In this document: positions 3,512 to 13,650 of the stretch, one piece after another
Position numbering within the stretch: position 1 is the first letter of the stretch
How the letters are laid out: each line of letters starts with the position of its first letter
Virus record (IMG/VR): IMGVR_UViG_3300025697_000139
Location: 1 to 24,637 of that record
Reading direction: 5' to 3' (one strand)
Source: a virus
Length of the DNA: 24,637 nt
The notes under the pieces: model-generated
Database searches by the model: none
The model's input: only the letters and a program-made list of their open reading frames with translations
What the model was told of the DNA's origin: nothing
Translations under genes and position numbers: made by a program

Positions 3512-5983
3512 CTACGTGTTTACTGCAATTCGGGTAGCGTGACGATCTCCGAGGTTTTCAATTATCGGAACTATTCTTTCTATGACAGCCGATTCAAGGT
3601 CGGTTGCGTCAAAGGCGCTTAGGGAAATGCTTATATTCGTTACATCGCCCGCCCTTGCATCGTCGCCTGGATCACCTAAAGAGATACCCCTTCCAACGGT
3701 TCCTCCGGCGCGAATAGCTTGCAACGCGCCAAAGTTTCGCCTTGTATCTTGGGCATCAATTACCATTTCGTTACCGTGTAAAATCGCTGGAAAAGCCTGA
3801 TTATCAGAAACGCCACCGGTATAACCACCCGCCGCGAAGCTTGGAAGGTCTTGCGCCATTCCACCTTTTTTTCCGAGTCCTAAAAGCTTGGCTATTCCAG
3901 TTGACCCGGCTCCAGCCGCTTCACTTGTACCGAATGATATTGCTGCCATCGCAGACCGAATTGCGAGGATGATAGGAAGCATGATTAATAGCTGTACAGT
4001 CATTGAAATAAATGTTTTCAAGACTGCTTTGCCCATTGCTTCCCAATCGGCAGTTCCGTCAACAATGGTATTCGCCAAAGTGTTACCGACACCTGAAACA
4101 GCGGCCCCTAGAGTCGATCTGGTTACGTCTGCCATCGTTACCATTGAGCCTACCCATTTGTCGGAGAATGCGACTATTTGCTCGTTTGCCATTCGGTCAA
4201 GCTCTGCTGCTACGCCACTGACTGATTCGTCAACCAGGGCTAACTGTTCTGCTGTTCCAGCGGCGCTGCCTGCAAGTGCTAGGCTCTGGTCAATCGCACC
4301 AATCGATGTGTCACCCCATATTGGCATTCCAGTTGCCGCGCCACCACCACGCCCAGCCCTACTTGCGCCACCCCCACCTGAAGGTCTGTTTCTACGCGCC
4401 ATTTCTTTAATCCAGGCATCCTTTGCTTCTTTTGAAATAAAAGCTAGTCCCTCGGCGGCTGATGTTGCGTCTCTGGTTGCCTTTGCTTCGTCATTGGCAG
4501 ACTGTGCAATGTTTCTTCTGTCCAGGCTTAATTGCGCCAACATGCGATGCTGTATTGCTAAAGTTAAATTTAGCTTTGCCGCGTCCCCTTCAAAGTCAAT
4601 AGCAATGTTTCGCATTAAGATAAACTTGGTAGCTTCTTTATTGTTTCGCCTAATTGCTTCCGTTGTCTCTATTATCTTTTCTTTCATGTCAGTTATAGCG
4701 GCGGCGTTTCTTTGCAGTTCTTTGTTTTCGCCTTTCGGAGCAAGATTTAGCCCTGCTACCCTTAACCCTTTTTCTATGACTTCATCAAGCTTTGACAACA
4801 GCGCATTAACCGACAAGGTTACATTTTCGATTGCGGTTACAACGGCTCTGGACCATGACAGAACAGTACTTTTGTTTTCTGATAAAAATGCTGCAAAGGT
4901 TTGAGCAAGGTCAACCAGTGTTGGAACTAATTCGTCTCCAATTTCGGCAGACGTATTAATAATTTCCTGTTTCAGCATTCCGAGCTTTTCAAGTCCCGAA
5001 CTTAGTTTAGTGTCTAGCGCATCTTCTAGTGCGCCACCCGCGCCACCCATTGCTGATTCCAGTTCCCGTAATCTCCCGGTGCTGGTTTGAAGGATTGCGC
5101 TTAATGCCACAACCCCCTCTTCGCCCGCGATTATCTTTAAGTTTGCCACCCTTTGCTTGTCTGTCATTTTGCCAAGCGCCACTCTCAGGTCCGCAACCAC
5201 GTCAATCATTGAGCGCATTTTGCCGACATCGTCAAAGGCGCTTACGCCCATTTTTTCAAGCAGTTTTCCTGCTTCGTCAACCGGGGCGGCTAAGCGAGAA
5301 ACAACCTGTCTAAATGCCCTACCACCCTCTGAACCCTTTAAGCTCTTATCGGCAAATGCAGCAAGGAAGGCAAGCCCTTCGTCAACTTGCACATTGAATG
5401 CACGCATAACCGGACCGGCTTTTTTAGCTGCTTCTGTGAATTGCTGGAGATTGGTTTTGACTAGCTTGGTAGTAACAAAGAAACGGTCTGCTACTTTGTC
5501 TGCTTCGGAAAGTGAAAATCCTAGCGCGTCGGTAACGTCGGCAAGATTTTCTACTGTGTCAGTTGGTAAGGTATCCCCAACCTTTGCAAGTTTAAATGCC
5601 GTATCGGCAAACTTATCAAATTCTTTTGACCCTGCTTTTGCTCCAGTTGACAAAACCTGATAGTAGCCGGTCAAGATAGAGCTTGCTGAAAGGTTTAGCT
5701 TGCCTGACATCTCCCTTGCCGTTTTGAGCATATCGTTACCGAGCTTTTGTATCTCCGCGTCGGTAGCCGTTACCATTGTCAAGGTGCTTTTTAAGGCCGC
5801 TCCCTGCTTTAAGCTTGCGGCGGTAAAAAGAACTATTACGCCGGTAACATAAACGATAGCCTTGCCAAGAGACCTAAACCCGCTTTTTAAAGACGCAATG
5901 GACTTCTTTGACCCGTCAATACCTTTTCTTAGCCCTTTTGAAACCAAGTCAAGGACGATGGTAATTTTGCCCTTTTGTGCCAT
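3512..5983 (-). CDS. Tail tape measure protein, TP901 type
   Basis: This 823-residue protein sets tail length and is ejected ahead of the DNA. The N-terminal half has the TP901-type tape measure core: regular helices with many Ala, Lys and Asp, including TKLVKTNLQQFTEAAKKAG and the GSEGGRAFRQVVSRLAAP stretch (roughly residues 180-240). A short hydrophobic segment lies at about residues 42-57 and a strong one at about 655-677 (SMTVQLLIMLPIILAI). Between them is a Gly/Arg linker near 528-552. By the usual rule of about 0.15 nm per residue the tail would be near 120 nm. It follows the two tail-chaperone frames directly, as in most siphophages. The ATG at 5983 has an AGAGG site upstream. Confidence 0.95.
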   Translation of the reverse strand: MAQKGKITIVLDLVSKGLRKGIDGSKKSIASLKSGFRSLGKAIVYVTGVIVLFTAASLKQGAALKSTLTMVTATDAEIQKLGNDMLKTAREMSGKLNLSASSILTGYYQVLSTGAKAGSKEFDKFADTAFKLAKVGDTLPTDTVENLADVTDALGFSLSEADKVADRFFVTTKLVKTNLQQFTEAAKKAGPVMRAFNVQVDEGLAFLAAFADKSLKGSEGGRAFRQVVSRLAAPVDEAGKLLEKMGVSAFDDVGKMRSMIDVVADLRVALGKMTDKQRVANLKIIAGEEGVVALSAILQTSTGRLRELESAMGGAGGALEDALDTKLSSGLEKLGMLKQEIINTSAEIGDELVPTLVDLAQTFAAFLSENKSTVLSWSRAVVTAIENVTLSVNALLSKLDEVIEKGLRVAGLNLAPKGENKELQRNAAAITDMKEKIIETTEAIRRNNKEATKFILMRNIAIDFEGDAAKLNLTLAIQHRMLAQLSLDRRNIAQSANDEAKATRDATSAAEGLAFISKEAKDAWIKEMARRNRPSGGGGASRAGRGGGAATGMPIWGDTSIGAIDQSLALAGSAAGTAEQLALVDESVSGVAAELDRMANEQIVAFSDKWVGSMVTMADVTRSTLGAAVSGVGNTLANTIVDGTADWEAMGKAVLKTFISMTVQLLIMLPIILAIRSAMAAISFGTSEAAGAGSTGIAKLLGLGKKGGMAQDLPSFAAGGYTGGVSDNQAFPAILHGNEMVIDAQDTRRNFGALQAIRAGGTVGRGISLGDPGDDARAGDVTNISISLSAFDATDLESAVIERIVPIIENLGDRHATRIAVNT

Positions 5984-5996
5984 TGAAAAACCTCTA

Positions 5997-6380
5997 TTAT
6001 TTTACTGAGTCGTTAGCAACTCTCACAGACTCGGATGATATAATTTTAAATGCTGATAGCGTTCGGTCTGGTTGGTCTAGTATTGACCCTGAATAAGGTA
6101 GGTGGATAAAAGGAACTGTAGCATATACGGCCCTGTCAAGCCCTGCTATTAGTTGGCTATAAACGCCACCGGTACAAGACAGCCACAAGTCAAACAGTTC
6201 TTTTTCACCTTGATGTAACGCTAGCCATTGAATAGGGCAACGATCAAAGGCCCAACCGGCTATTATTATTTCTTCTCCTTTGCCGTCGCAATTCCTAACC
6301 TCTTTCATTTCATCGCTTTTATTACACGGCAACCCTGAAAAGGAATCTATTTCAAAGCAAGACCACCCGCAACTTACCAT
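5997..6380 (-). CDS. Downstream frame of the tail assembly chaperone, read by -1 frameshift (gpT-like)
   Basis: This frame has an ATG at 6380 and 127 codons, but that ATG has only a weak ribosome site. The frame is open back to the slippery sequence A AAA AAC at 6407-6401 at the end of the upstream gene. A -1 slip there reads through as LKKATAI and then joins this frame, giving a fusion of about 245 residues (111 + 7 + 127). This matches the G/GT pair of lambda-like tails, where the longer form binds the tape measure during tail assembly. Sequence content is unfamiliar: several cysteines early (MVSCGWSCFE) and aromatic stretches. It lies immediately upstream of the tape measure, as expected. 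Separate expression from the internal ATG cannot be excluded. Confidence 0.8.
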   Translation of the reverse strand: MVSCGWSCFEIDSFSGLPCNKSDEMKEVRNCDGKGEEIIIAGWAFDRCPIQWLALHQGEKELFDLWLSCTGGVYSQLIAGLDRAVYATVPFIHLPYSGSILDQPDRTLSAFKIISSESVRVANDSVK

Positions 6381-6407
6381 TATTGCGGTGGCCTTTTTCA
6401 GTTTTTT
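6361..6407 (-). promoter_or_regulatory. Programmed -1 ribosomal frameshift signal in tail chaperone genes
   Basis: On the minus strand the last sense codons of the first chaperone gene read GCA AAA AAC and then TGA. The bases at 6407-6401 form the canonical slippery heptamer A AAA AAC in the correct phase. Seven bases later a stem-loop begins: 6393-6385 pairs with 6370-6361 in nine base pairs (one is G-U) with a single bulged G at 6368, around a 14-base loop. After a -1 slip the ribosome reads CTG AAA AAG and enters the downstream frame. Heptamer, phase, spacer and stem all agree with a classical stimulated frameshift site. The loop contains the internal ATG at 6380. Confidence 0.85.
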
Positions 6408-6733
6408 GCTTCGTCTTCGTCACGGCGCAAAACGCTAAACAGCACGTCATCAGCAACGGCAAAAGAAACTAGATCAAAAAATTCCCCTGGCTCTATTTGG
6501 CGCTGTTTGCCTTCGTCTTCAATGCCGGAAACTGATATAACATTTTCACAAAATAGTTTTCTGTTTTCCACGGTGGCTTTTTTTGGGTCGGTAATTTTAC
6601 TTATCTTTTTTAATTTAACCGAAAGCTCTTCTAGTCCAAGCTTCGTAAGCAGTTTCATTTTAAAGATAGTAGGATTATCACTATCCCGATCATCTTTTAA
6701 GATATAATTAAATGTTCTTTTTACGACAAACAT
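6398..6733 (-). CDS. Tail assembly chaperone, upstream frame (gpG-like)
   Basis: This 111-residue protein has the size, position and mixed helical/charged content of the G-type tail assembly chaperones found between the tail tube gene and the tape measure gene. Residues such as MKLLTKLGLEELSVKLKKIS and the Gln/Asp-rich region near the C-terminus fit that class, although the family varies strongly in sequence. It starts at ATG 6733 behind a strong AAGGAG site. Its C-terminus (DEDEAKN) overlies the slippery sequence that yields the longer GT form. The normal product would be made in excess over the frameshift product. Confidence 0.8.
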   Translation of the reverse strand: MFVVKRTFNYILKDDRDSDNPTIFKMKLLTKLGLEELSVKLKKISKITDPKKATVENRKLFCENVISVSGIEDEGKQRQIEPGEFFDLVSFAVADDVLFSVLRRDEDEAKN

Positions 6734-6935: not shown

Positions 6936-8312
6936 TTAAAATGCAAATACAAATGCGTCTTCGCCACTGGTTCCTAAAACGGCTGCGCTTGTCAATGTCA
7001 CTTTGATTTTATCGGCTTTATTGTCCGGTACGGTGAACGGTTCGAACTTGACAGCTGGCATACTGAATGCCGCCCCGCGTCCGTCGGTTGTGCCTACTTG
7101 AACGAAGACCTTGACCGCAGTGCCCGCTGAGGCCTTTGCTTTCAAGTCGGCTATTTCGTTTGTGGTCTTGACATAAATTACGGTTTCAAATGAAAGCTCT
7201 CTGTTCTCTGGGAAATCGATCCCGGCTGCTAATTGACAGTTTCCCGTACCGCCGTCGCCAAATTCAAAACGCGCAACTGCTTTTTCGTCGTCTGAAATTG
7301 CTACTGATTCGGTTTTATATTGAACGTCATTTATCCAAACGCCACCGCACAAGCTCATGATTCGACTTCCCGCCGTGGTCTCGTCCGGCTCGTAAGGTCC
7401 GATTGCTACGCTGATTAAGTGAGCCGCTGCAACGGTTCCATCATAATCTCGTTCAACGGTCAGGCTTAGGCCTGTTGCATCAACAACAGTAACCAGCATT
7501 TGCTCCGTTCCACACAGCAATATTGCGCCCACTTCGTTACCCGAAGCATTAACGGGGACGGTTGTGGTAGAATCATCAATCCCGGCGGATAGGGTTGTGT
7601 GGACTGAGTTAACAACGTCCCTGCAAAGCCCCTCCATTGTAACCATTCCAGCTTCGCCCTGGGTGACGCTAATATCAAGCTTGGAAAGCTTAGAGCCTAA
7701 TCCCATTTCGCCCAATACATTATCACTTGAATGCAGCGAGATATAACTCGTATCTTGCAACGCTGTATTGTATTGGGTTGTGGCCGAAACAGTGTCGTTT
7801 TCTTTAGGAGCATTTGCAAAAGGTGGATCAATTACCAATGCCCCTCCAGTATTGCTTGCAACTCTGAAGTATCGGTTTTCGCTAACTACCCCGCTGTCAG
7901 ACGCGCTTTCAATGGCGATTTTGCCAATAGCTCCAGTTGGGAGATTATCAGCATCCATTTTAAGGGTAGTCGTTGTCGTCGCATCGGCTGTCACCTCGGA
8001 AGCTGCATTTGTCGATGCACTAAAAGCCGTGGTCAAAATGCTTGCGATGTCTGGAGCCGTGCCTTGGGTGCCACTCGAAAGCAGATAAGATTCGGCAGTC
8101 CAACTACACTCTTTATTGCCTTGATCCGCTTCTAAATTATCCCTTGTGTCTGGGTGATAATCGTCGCGGGGTGTGATGTTTGCCGCTTCTGCAAATACAA
8201 TCTTGCTGGTTAGCTTAATCGCATCAGTTCCGGCGTGTGCTTTTGGAGTCGAAATGTCGTCTTGGTCCGCCGACGCATAGTTGTGGGTGTAAAGCCCTAA
8301 TCCTTGTGTCAT
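6936..8312 (-). CDS. Major tail tube protein
   Basis: This 458-residue protein is placed exactly where the major tail protein belongs: after the tail completion genes and before the chaperones and tape measure. It is beta-rich with many Thr/Ser/Ala, and has the opening pattern of tube proteins that load as rings (residues 25-60, including TDAIKLTSKIVFAEAANI). It is longer than the usual 150-300 residues. The middle (about residues 100-330) looks like inserted Ig- or hub-like beta domains, for example TTTVPVNASGNEVGAILLCG followed by LTVERDYDGTVAAAH, a pattern typical of phage surface domains. The start has an AAGGA site eight bases upstream. The role is assigned mainly by gene order; the length could also suit a fused tube-plus-decoration protein. 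Confidence 0.75.
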   Translation of the reverse strand: MTQGLGLYTHNYASADQDDISTPKAHAGTDAIKLTSKIVFAEAANITPRDDYHPDTRDNLEADQGNKECSWTAESYLLSSGTQGTAPDIASILTTAFSASTNAASEVTADATTTTTLKMDADNLPTGAIGKIAIESASDSGVVSENRYFRVASNTGGALVIDPPFANAPKENDTVSATTQYNTALQDTSYISLHSSDNVLGEMGLGSKLSKLDISVTQGEAGMVTMEGLCRDVVNSVHTTLSAGIDDSTTTVPVNASGNEVGAILLCGTEQMLVTVVDATGLSLTVERDYDGTVAAAHLISVAIGPYEPDETTAGSRIMSLCGGVWINDVQYKTESVAISDDEKAVARFEFGDGGTGNCQLAAGIDFPENRELSFETVIYVKTTNEIADLKAKASAGTAVKVFVQVGTTDGRGAAFSMPAVKFEPFTVPDNKADKIKVTLTSAAVLGTSGEDAFVFAF

Positions 8313-9483: not shown

Positions 9484-11391
9484 TTATTCAGCAAAGCAGG
9501 CCGTGGAATCATCAGACATTTTCACATCATTCGATCCGTTGCAGTAGCAAAAATAGTTGCTCGTCCCGTTGTAGAACATTGATCCTGTTGGGTATCCGAT
9601 AGTGTCTCCACAAGGGTCGGCTGTAACTACACCCGGCTGTACGCCCTTGGCAACCGTCACGACCTTGTCAAACTCACAGGCGTTTTCAAAGATCAAGCCA
9701 GCCGTGCCGCCAAAGCGCCCCTGGTCGGTTCCGTTTTCGTCATATTTCAGCGTAATGTCGTCATTGTCGCCTAATACCAGTCCCATGTCATCTTCAATAT
9801 AGATATCTGCTTCGGTACTTAAAAAGCCAACAAACGCCCACCCTACGCCGTCAATTGTAACTTCGCCCTCTGCGCTATCGAATTGGACACAAGAATCGTC
9901 TCCGTCTCCATAGCAAGTAGTTTGGTCGTCTGGATTAGCTATTCCAGTTGTTGGGGTGATTATGCCTGATGCTGTAAAGCCGCCCGTAACAGAAACCGTG
10001 CCATCTGTGAAGTTATCAATGCTCTCTCCGTTACTCATTAAAAAGTCAAACCCGGTAATTGTTTGATCTGAAAAGTCAATTCCGTTTGTGCTTGACCCGC
10101 CGGTAAGATGGAATCCCGAAATGATGTCGCCATAAAGTACCATGCCATAATCCAGGGCTTGAAAATCGCCACCCGTCCCATAATTGTGACCGGAGTAAAT
10201 CATTGACTTGCCACCGTCGGTCATTGCAGACAACAGCTTCACGTTGGCATAAACGCCTGCATGTTCGCCGCCTGAATGCACAACGGAATTGTCTTCGTCG
10301 TACAGCTTGACTCTTAATCCGGCGGTTGTGCCTCCTGTGTAAGTTTGACCCGATTGAGCTGTGAATTTAATCATTGGCCCAATCGATGCACCACCCGCCG
10401 TGGTTGCTTCCACATCAAAGTTGCCGTCAATGTCCACGTCTGCATTAATGTCCAGTGCGCTGTCAAACTCACAGGCGTTTTCAAAGATCAAGCCAGCCGT
10501 GCCGCCAAAGCGCCCCTGGTCGGTTCCGTTTTCGTCATATTTCAGCGTAATGTCGTCATTGTCGCCAAGAGTCAAAGCGTTATCGTCTTCGATATAGATA
10601 TCGCCACCCGTGCTCAGGCTCCCATTAAATGCCCAATCCGCGCCGTTAATTACAATTTCATCATCCCCGGCTTCGTCGTAATAAATGCATGAGTCTGGAC
10701 CATCTCCAAAGCATAAGTTTATATCGTCTGGAATTAATGCGCCGCCGTCGGCATAAAGAACGCCGTCAATTTCAACAAGACCAGATATAAAAGCATCGTT
10801 TCCGTCTATTGTTTGTCCGGGCGTTGACGCGCCTAGAAATAGATTCCCGGTTTCCAGCATCAGCCCGCCGGTTGCACTTGCGATGGTCAATTTAAGCAGA
10901 TCATCGGTTGTTTCATCATACCAAAAATAAGCATCGTTTGTGGCTCCGAATGCCAACAAGGCGTCGTCAACAAGGTACACATTAGCCTTTGTATATACAT
11001 GCCCTGTAAACTCGCTAGTGTCACCTACATAAAGGTCCAGCCCGTCAAGCGCAGCTACTGGCACACCCGGACCTATAAAAATATTTCCGTTTAAAAGGTT
11101 CAGTCCACCGGCGGCTACTGTAGTCAAAATTAGCCTGTCAGTTCCAGCCTCATCGTAAGCCAGCGTTACATCGGAAGCATCGCCAAGCGAAATATCGGTG
11201 TCATCGGGTACTAAAATTCCACCATTTGCAGTAAACAAGCCGGTCAAAACATAAGTACCCGTGACAACAACGTCTTCAAAGGTGTTAGTGCCGCCCCCGG
11301 TAAACCCGTGCGGGTACCTAGTCTGACTTACGGCAAAGGACGCAATAAGCAAAAAGCAAATTGCCAAGATAATAATGTTGCGAGTTTTCAT
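9484..11391 (-). CDS. Exported, repetitive beta-rich virion fibre or decoration protein
   Basis: This 635-residue protein begins with a Sec signal peptide (MKTRNIIILAICFLLIASFA, cleavage likely after AVS at residue 22). The rest is beta-rich and built from at least six degenerate copies of an LGDxxDxTLxYDE-type unit, for example SLGDASDVTLAYDEAGTD, CFGDGPDSCIYYDEAGDD and TLGDNDDITLKYDENGTD. An 85-90 residue block near 222-310 is repeated near 490-575, and its last 35 codons are identical in DNA. Cysteines occur as pairs (CFGDGPDSC, CYGDGDDSC) and a C-terminal cluster (about residues 595-632), which suits disulfide bonding outside the cytoplasm. Similar Asp-rich repeats occur in environmental phage structural proteins. 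It lies between capsid and connector genes; whether it is a head fibre, an exported coat protein or something else is unsettled. Confidence 0.65.
   Translation of the reverse strand: MKTRNIIILAICFLLIASFAVSQTRYPHGFTGGGTNTFEDVVVTGTYVLTGLFTANGGILVPDDTDISLGDASDVTLAYDEAGTDRLILTTVAAGGLNLLNGNIFIGPGVPVAALDGLDLYVGDTSEFTGHVYTKANVYLVDDALLAFGATNDAYFWYDETTDDLLKLTIASATGGLMLETGNLFLGASTPGQTIDGNDAFISGLVEIDGVLYADGGALIPDDINLCFGDGPDSCIYYDEAGDDEIVINGADWAFNGSLSTGGDIYIEDDNALTLGDNDDITLKYDENGTDQGRFGGTAGLIFENACEFDSALDINADVDIDGNFDVEATTAGGASIGPMIKFTAQSGQTYTGGTTAGLRVKLYDEDNSVVHSGGEHAGVYANVKLLSAMTDGGKSMIYSGHNYGTGGDFQALDYGMVLYGDIISGFHLTGGSSTNGIDFSDQTITGFDFLMSNGESIDNFTDGTVSVTGGFTASGIITPTTGIANPDDQTTCYGDGDDSCVQFDSAEGEVTIDGVGWAFVGFLSTEADIYIEDDMGLVLGDNDDITLKYDENGTDQGRFGGTAGLIFENACEFDKVVTVAKGVQPGVVTADPCGDTIGYPTGSMFYNGTSNYFCYCNGSNDVKMSDDSTACFAE
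9666..9771. repeat. 106-bp perfect direct repeat, copy B
   Basis: These 106 bases are identical, base for base, to 10461-10566. The two copies lie 795 bases apart, exactly 265 codons, and in the same frame of the fibre gene. This copy encodes residues 541-575, GDNDDITLKYDENGTDQGRF and onward. Confidence 0.95.
10461..10566. repeat. 106-bp perfect direct repeat, copy A
   Basis: Identical to 9666-9771. It encodes residues 276-310 of the fibre protein, the 3' end of a longer duplicated block. The flanking sequence is similar only at protein level, so the two halves differ in their divergence. Confidence 0.95.
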
Positions 11392-12747: not shown

Positions 12748-13650
12748 CTAAGTAACTATAGAGCCGTCAATTCCTCTGTAGTCAGAAGCGCCAACGCTGA
12801 AACGCATACGCCCCATGTATTCAGCCGAAGACGTTCCATTGATTTGGTCGATTTCAAAAGCCACCGGAACACGATCATAAAACTTTAGTCTGGCAAGCTT
12901 GGAATCAATCAAGAACCAGTTATTCGCGTCTGTCAGATACGGCCAAATAATAAGCTTCATGCCGTAGCCGTTAAAGACGTTGTAGCTATTCTCCGCTGTT
13001 TCTGGAGCGCCCGAAGTCGTCTTAAGCAGGTCCATTGCAGTCCATCCTAGCGCAGACGGAACTACCAAGGTATCAGGCTGTGCATTTATCATAATTCCAC
13101 CGTCGTCAAGCTGTCCGTTCATAACTGTAATGCGCGCCTGTAAGGAATCATACGAAAGGGCGGCTGTTCCCCGGTTGTCATTAGTATCGGTTGAGTTTAC
13201 CAAGGCTCTAGCGTCTGCACACAGTTGGCCACCGTCTGGCATTGCGCCACCACCGGCAAAGGCGTTGTTAAATACGTCAGCCGCTTCGGTTTCGATCCTT
13301 GCGCGAGCACCACGCCCCAGCAAAGTAATACCCTCGTTAATCGACCCATAAAGCTCGTCTTCAATCATATCTTTGGTCACTGCGAAAGATTTCTTGTACG
13401 TTACGTGGGTATACGCAACTCTGGCGATTTCTTCCATTTCGTCTTTAGTAATCGGTGTACCATCAGGTACCGCGCCCCAAATACCCAACCCGGACAAAGC
13501 CAAGTCTCTCTCAACTGCTTGCCCTGATGTCAACACTTTAAAAATCTCGCTATACACCATCGGCTTTTCGCGCATACCGGTGTAGAAAACTTCGCGCAAT
13601 CCAGGCTCTAAAGAATAAGGCCAGTTTGCTGGAATCATTGCTTTCGCCAT
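12748..13650 (-). CDS. Major capsid protein, HK97-like
   Basis: The protein has 300 residues and is the expected size for an HK97-fold capsid protein without a long delta domain. Its place after scaffold and decoration genes is typical. The visible pattern fits: an N-terminal arm, a charged helix (DMIEDELYGSINEGITLLG, residues about 98-116), an A-domain-like region with VVPSALGWTAMDLLKTT (residues about 196-212), and a beta-rich end (RLKFYDRVPVAFEIDQING, about 249-267). The separate scaffold gene upstream agrees with this. A Mu gpT-like relationship is possible; I judge it from layout rather than motif. ATG 13650 has an AAAGGA site. Confidence 0.8.
   Translation of the reverse strand: MAKAMIPANWPYSLEPGLREVFYTGMREKPMVYSEIFKVLTSGQAVERDLALSGLGIWGAVPDGTPITKDEMEEIARVAYTHVTYKKSFAVTKDMIEDELYGSINEGITLLGRGARARIETEAADVFNNAFAGGGAMPDGGQLCADARALVNSTDTNDNRGTAALSYDSLQARITVMNGQLDDGGIMINAQPDTLVVPSALGWTAMDLLKTTSGAPETAENSYNVFNGYGMKLIIWPYLTDANNWFLIDSKLARLKFYDRVPVAFEIDQINGTSSAEYMGRMRFSVGASDYRGIDGSIVT

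Follow-up and report, generated by a model that had tools for sequence, protein, structure and literature searches.

The stretch of DNA analysed here, hereafter called the window, is 24,637 nucleotides long and represents the whole of the metagenomic IMG/VR virus record IMGVR_UViG_3300025697_000139. The minus strand is the strand of the frameshift signal, and all coordinates of the frameshift region are read on that strand. Two small open reading frames (ORFs), termed G and T below, lie directly before the gene for a tail tape measure protein, which starts 13 nt after the T stop codon. Upstream of G are a 50-aa ORF, the gene for a probable tail tube protein and connector genes. This order fits the G/GT class, in which a pair of ORFs in −1 relation is located between the major tail protein and the tape measure protein; the major tail protein of the window was assigned by its position and a weak match. 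An earlier sequence-only reading of the locus had given correct coordinates, but had left the minus strand unstated. The features are as follows:

6936 to 8312, minus strand: probable major tail (tube) protein, assigned from its location together with a weak, sub-threshold match to Pfam Phage_tube_2 (E 0.08)
6398 to 6733, minus strand: G-like ORF of 111 aa in the zero frame, a predicted tail assembly chaperone, with a strong Shine-Dalgarno sequence AAAGGAG (−7.9 kcal/mol) and coding-like codon usage
6401 to 6407, minus strand: slippery heptamer A AAA AAC in −1 phase (GCA AAA AAC TGA)
6398 to 6400, minus strand: zero-frame TGA stop codon, directly after the heptamer
6359 to 6395, minus strand: hairpin, presumed stimulator, with 14 pairs and one bulged G; core of nine pairs at 6393-6385 / 6370-6361, loop at 6381-6374
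6378 to 6380, minus strand: T-frame ATG within the hairpin loop, at +20 from the heptamer, with a weak Shine-Dalgarno sequence
5997 to 6401, minus strand: T-like −1 frame, 134 codons from the slip and 127 aa from the ATG, with a codon usage that favours this frame over the other five
3512 to 5983, minus strand: tail tape measure protein of 823 aa, matching PHROG tape-measure families (E 5e-40) and Pfam PhageMin_Tail (E 1.5e-33)

The codon usage of T speaks for a gene, since the mean log-likelihood was +0.08 in its own frame and negative in the other five frames. Neither G nor T showed a significant match in Pfam or PHROGs, and no relatives of either were retrieved by tblastn from the phage, viral or genome collections. 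Likewise, searches of viral contigs, genomes and phage records with G, T, the major tail protein and the capsid protein revealed no relatives of the tail module. Single-sequence AlphaFold models of G and T, made without an alignment, had mean pLDDT values of 55 and 36, which is too poor to support a fold. Because neither ORF has a detectable homologue, their identity as chaperones rests on position, and we regard G and T as predicted tail assembly chaperones of the lambda G/GT type. The previous claim of a frameshift in a tail chaperone pair stands for the −1 shift, which is well supported by its anatomy and by the presence of the same signal in many loci with related tape measure proteins, whereas the chaperone part of the claim follows from gene position, neither protein matching a family.

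The major capsid protein (window 12748-13650) is closest, at about 30% identity, to the capsid proteins of phages without this tail module, several of which are annotated as podoviruses. The co-occurrence of such a capsid protein with a siphovirus-type tape measure protein is a sign of mosaicism. Because the matched phages, mostly annotated as podovirus-like, lack this tail module, the capsid protein could not be used for a comparison of the tails. At 9484-11391 of the window lies a 635-aa ORF with internal repeats (e.g. DNDDITLKYDENGTDQGRFGGTAGLIFENACEFD, which occurs twice) and no PHROG match.

The slip site and the predicted hairpin

The sequence-only reading had placed a canonical A AAA AAC heptamer in the right phase at the very end of the first chaperone gene. 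This is indeed what is found at positions 6407-6401, where the heptamer has the classical X XXY YYZ phase and the ORF 6733-6398 ends with GAA GCA AAA AAC TGA. A −1 slip at this site reads CTG AAA AAG GCC ACC GCA ATA ATG ..., which is translated as LKKATAIM... and is the frame of the ORF 6380-5997, as had been proposed. The two frames overlap by 22 nt only, and the heptamer lies inside this overlap. Since the open part of the −1 frame upstream of the end of the G stop codon comprises just these 22 nt, a productive slip is confined to that spot. The locus thus has an in-phase slippery heptamer within the overlap near the end of the first ORF, as is characteristic of frameshifts of the G/GT type. 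In-phase A AAA AAN occurs at 0.16% of the codon positions in the genes of the window, which translates into about 0.011 expected occurrences in the overlap; for any in-phase XXXYYYZ, the expectation is 0.03. The window shows no enrichment of the bare string AAAAAAC, of which 5 occurrences were found versus 13 expected. Another in-phase A AAA AAC is located near the end of the helicase gene (23539-23533), but the shifted frame stops there within about 8 codons and we consider this site incidental.

Downstream of the heptamer, a 7-nt spacer, a stem of nine base pairs with one bulged G and a 14-nt loop with an ATG are all present as previously described, and the hairpin that is predicted by folding is in fact better than this description. 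In this prediction the nine-pair stem is the G+C-rich core, to which five more pairs are added on its inner and outer sides, so that the hairpin has 14 pairs, a 5-nt spacer and an 8-nt apical loop, AAUGGUAA, in which the ATG sits. The predicted free energy of this hairpin is −19.9 kcal/mol (z −4.13), and none of 200 shuffled sequences was as stable. Moreover, the fold stability of the 50 nt after the heptamer was equalled in just 0.28% of the minus-strand 50-mers. The in-phase heptamer and the stable fold together are well beyond chance. No pseudoknot partner of at least 5 nt for the loop was found in the approximately 130 nt downstream of the hairpin, and the window contains no Rfam match.

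On the plus strand, a T-rich tract (TTTTTCAGTTTTTT) follows the stem, and the hairpin might therefore be an intrinsic terminator of antisense transcription. However, this tract is merely the complement of the heptamer and the spacer, and the fold is weaker on the plus strand (z −1.88). Furthermore, all surrounding genes are minus-strand genes, and the hairpin is absent from the output of the terminator scan. We regard a role as terminator as highly improbable.

The shift signal in loci with related tape measure proteins

As G and T have no detectable sequence relatives, conservation was assessed on syntenic loci with about 23-36% identity in the tape measure protein, and not on homologues of G and T. 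A profile of the N-terminal part of the tape measure protein fetched 80 viral and 80 genomic loci, most of which belong to one Clostridia-phage family, so that the counts given below are not independent. In 114 of the 141 usable sequences (window included), the scan detected an in-phase heptamer by which an ORF located upstream of the tape measure gene is connected to a −1 frame. In 27 usable loci it detected no −1 heptamer, for some of them perhaps due to a poorly placed start of the tape measure gene. A comparison of the phase in related phages had been suggested as a check on the slip site. Of the 140 loci, 84 have A AAA AAC in the −1 phase of the window together with a −1 partner frame, and none has it in either of the other two phases. 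The rearranged A6C heptamers were present in the same phase 0, 0, 5, 1, 0 and 1 times in the 140 loci.

For the 7 codons that separate the slip site from the T-frame ATG, 82 distinct relatives gave a synonymous to non-synonymous ratio of 1.2 in the T frame versus 0.19 in the G frame. This stretch is therefore translated in the shifted frame in the relatives. The finding represents direct comparative evidence for a translated fusion in those phages and, by analogy, suggests such a fusion for the window.

This constraint bears on the view that G and T are two separate genes and that the heptamer is incidental, with T being made from the loop ATG (6380) by reinitiation after the TGA 17 nt upstream. 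The ATG is in frame and resides in an unpaired loop shortly after the G stop, and in the largest related family the T-frame ATG even overlaps the G stop as ATGA. However, the Shine-Dalgarno-like AAGG before the loop ATG is weak (−3.2 kcal/mol) and lies within the stem, and an in-phase heptamer would be expected just 0.01 times in the overlap. In addition, the relatives show T-frame constraint on the codons that precede the ATG, which would be unneeded if T were made from the ATG alone. An arrangement of separate genes is, in our view, very unlikely.

Runs of A are prone to error and the record is of metagenomic origin, which could mean that an assembly or sequencing indel in the A-run has split a single gene. 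Indeed, in the relative L123 (2478-3003, Lachnospiraceae bacterium TWA4), one of the 27 loci without a −1 heptamer in the scan, the parts that correspond to G and T share a single reading frame, joined close to eight consecutive A's. Yet, dozens of independent genomes, among them isolates, show the same −1 break at a heptamer of this kind, and such an error has hardly any probability as the cause of the break in the window. The single frame of L123 may itself be a natural constitutive fusion, a case of slippage on the A-run or a sequence error. For the window, we consider transcriptional slippage unlikely, as its A-run consists of six A's and the heptamer, which ends in C, is kept in one phase in the relatives.

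The sequence-only reading had also presented the combination of all elements in so compact a form as unusual. This view is not borne out by the relatives. A stop codon directly after the heptamer recurs in the loci L011, L012, L015, L132 and L112. Of 92 distinct signals, 86 have a T-frame ATG at most 60 nt from the heptamer. It usually has the very +20 position that it has in the window, and start codons at +17 or +20 are the rule among the relatives. In L093 the ATG at +17 is positioned in or at the edge of the hairpin loop. Since the adjacent stop, the position of the ATG and its placement in a loop all recur, the combination is not unusual.

Predicted products and comparison with known systems

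The locus very probably encodes a programmed −1 ribosomal frameshift of the lambda G/GT type in a long-tailed phage. From the sequence, the phase, the predicted structure, the adjacency of the tape measure gene and the signal in the relatives, we infer the slipping itself, its rate and the chaperone function. Most ribosomes would read the 111-aa ORF to the TGA, which would result in the G-like chaperone. A minority would be paused by the hairpin 5-7 nt downstream of A AAA AAC, and both tRNAs would slip one base back (AAA/AAC to AAA/AAA), such that these ribosomes would bypass the TGA in the −1 frame and synthesize a fusion protein with a length of about 245 aa. As is the case in lambda, G may bind the tape measure protein while the T part of the fusion may recruit tail tube subunits.

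If both the slip and the loop ATG were to work, the locus would make three products, G, GT and T, as had been put forward previously. In favour of this, the ATG is situated in the loop and has precisely the +20 position that is seen in most relatives. However, its Shine-Dalgarno-like AAGG is among the weakest of the 33 starts in the window and is sequestered in the stem, and weak Shine-Dalgarno sequences are found throughout the relatives, where just one of the 92 distinct signals combines the ATG with a Shine-Dalgarno sequence of −5 kcal/mol or better. T of the main related family begins with L-R-P-T-D-R-E-M-T-T-P-L, and its conserved Met-Thr-Thr-Pro-Leu block can also be explained by protein constraint. 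The idea of three products is unsupported beyond the presence of the ATG, and we consider it unlikely. Likewise unlikely is a function of the hairpin as a three-way switch, in which it would promote −1 slipping but would also be melted by ribosomes terminating at the neighbouring TGA, so that the loop ATG would become accessible for the synthesis of free T; the +20 ATG that is common to many relatives would then serve as a conserved second entry to T.

The frameshift signal is real yet ordinary, and of a well-known type. The −1 shift between G and T has been described as a widely conserved feature of long-tailed phages, A_AAA_AAC is the reported G-T shift site of the haloarchaeal virus HCTV-2, and a low sequence similarity has been reported for the chaperone ORFs of different phages (PMC5009743). 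An annotation guide tells authors to look for the chaperone frameshift (PMC8785237), and a tool for the prediction of these shifts, which was trained with 2397 annotated cases of chaperones from a single phage collection, is available (PMC10885494). The present case makes the correct annotation of the fused GT product possible in a phage whose chaperones have no detectable relatives. It adds one example of A AAA AAC with a hairpin before a tape measure gene, and leaves the knowledge of tail assembly and frameshifting unchanged.

Lambda G/GT shares with the window two small ORFs in −1 relation that immediately precede the tape measure gene (Levin et al. 1993; Xu et al. 2004, reviewed in PMC5009743), a slip site at the end of the first ORF, and a second ORF without an independent strong start. 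The window differs from lambda by its A AAA AAC, strong hairpin and adjacent stop, and no sequence similarity between the two was found. Lambda's own slip site is G GGA AAG. In dnaX of Escherichia coli, A AAA AAG is combined with an upstream Shine-Dalgarno stimulator and the product of the shift is shorter, not longer. No such upstream stimulator is evident in the window; what it has in common with dnaX is an A-rich heptamer followed by a simple stem-loop (PMC5009743).

Among the relatives, L011, L012, L015 and L132 resemble the window in having A AAA AAC, an adjacent stop and a hairpin immediately downstream. Unlike the window with its loop ATG, L011 has no start codon near the hairpin and L132 has GTG; the G protein of L011 did not align with that of the window. 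Clostridia prophages and phages (L008, L009, L013, L095 and others) have the same heptamer, phase and T-frame ATG at +20 and a related tape measure neighbour. They differ in that the G stop follows 21 nt after the heptamer and overlaps the ATG, and in that the T part of about 60 codons (...MTTPLFLLRC...) is unrelated in sequence to T of the window. In L008, L009, L013 and about 80 other loci, at a position immediately before the tape measure gene, this ATGA overlap places the T-frame ATG 20 nt after the slip site. Synthesis of free T by coupled reinitiation is therefore conceivable in this main family, where it could coexist with the fusion.
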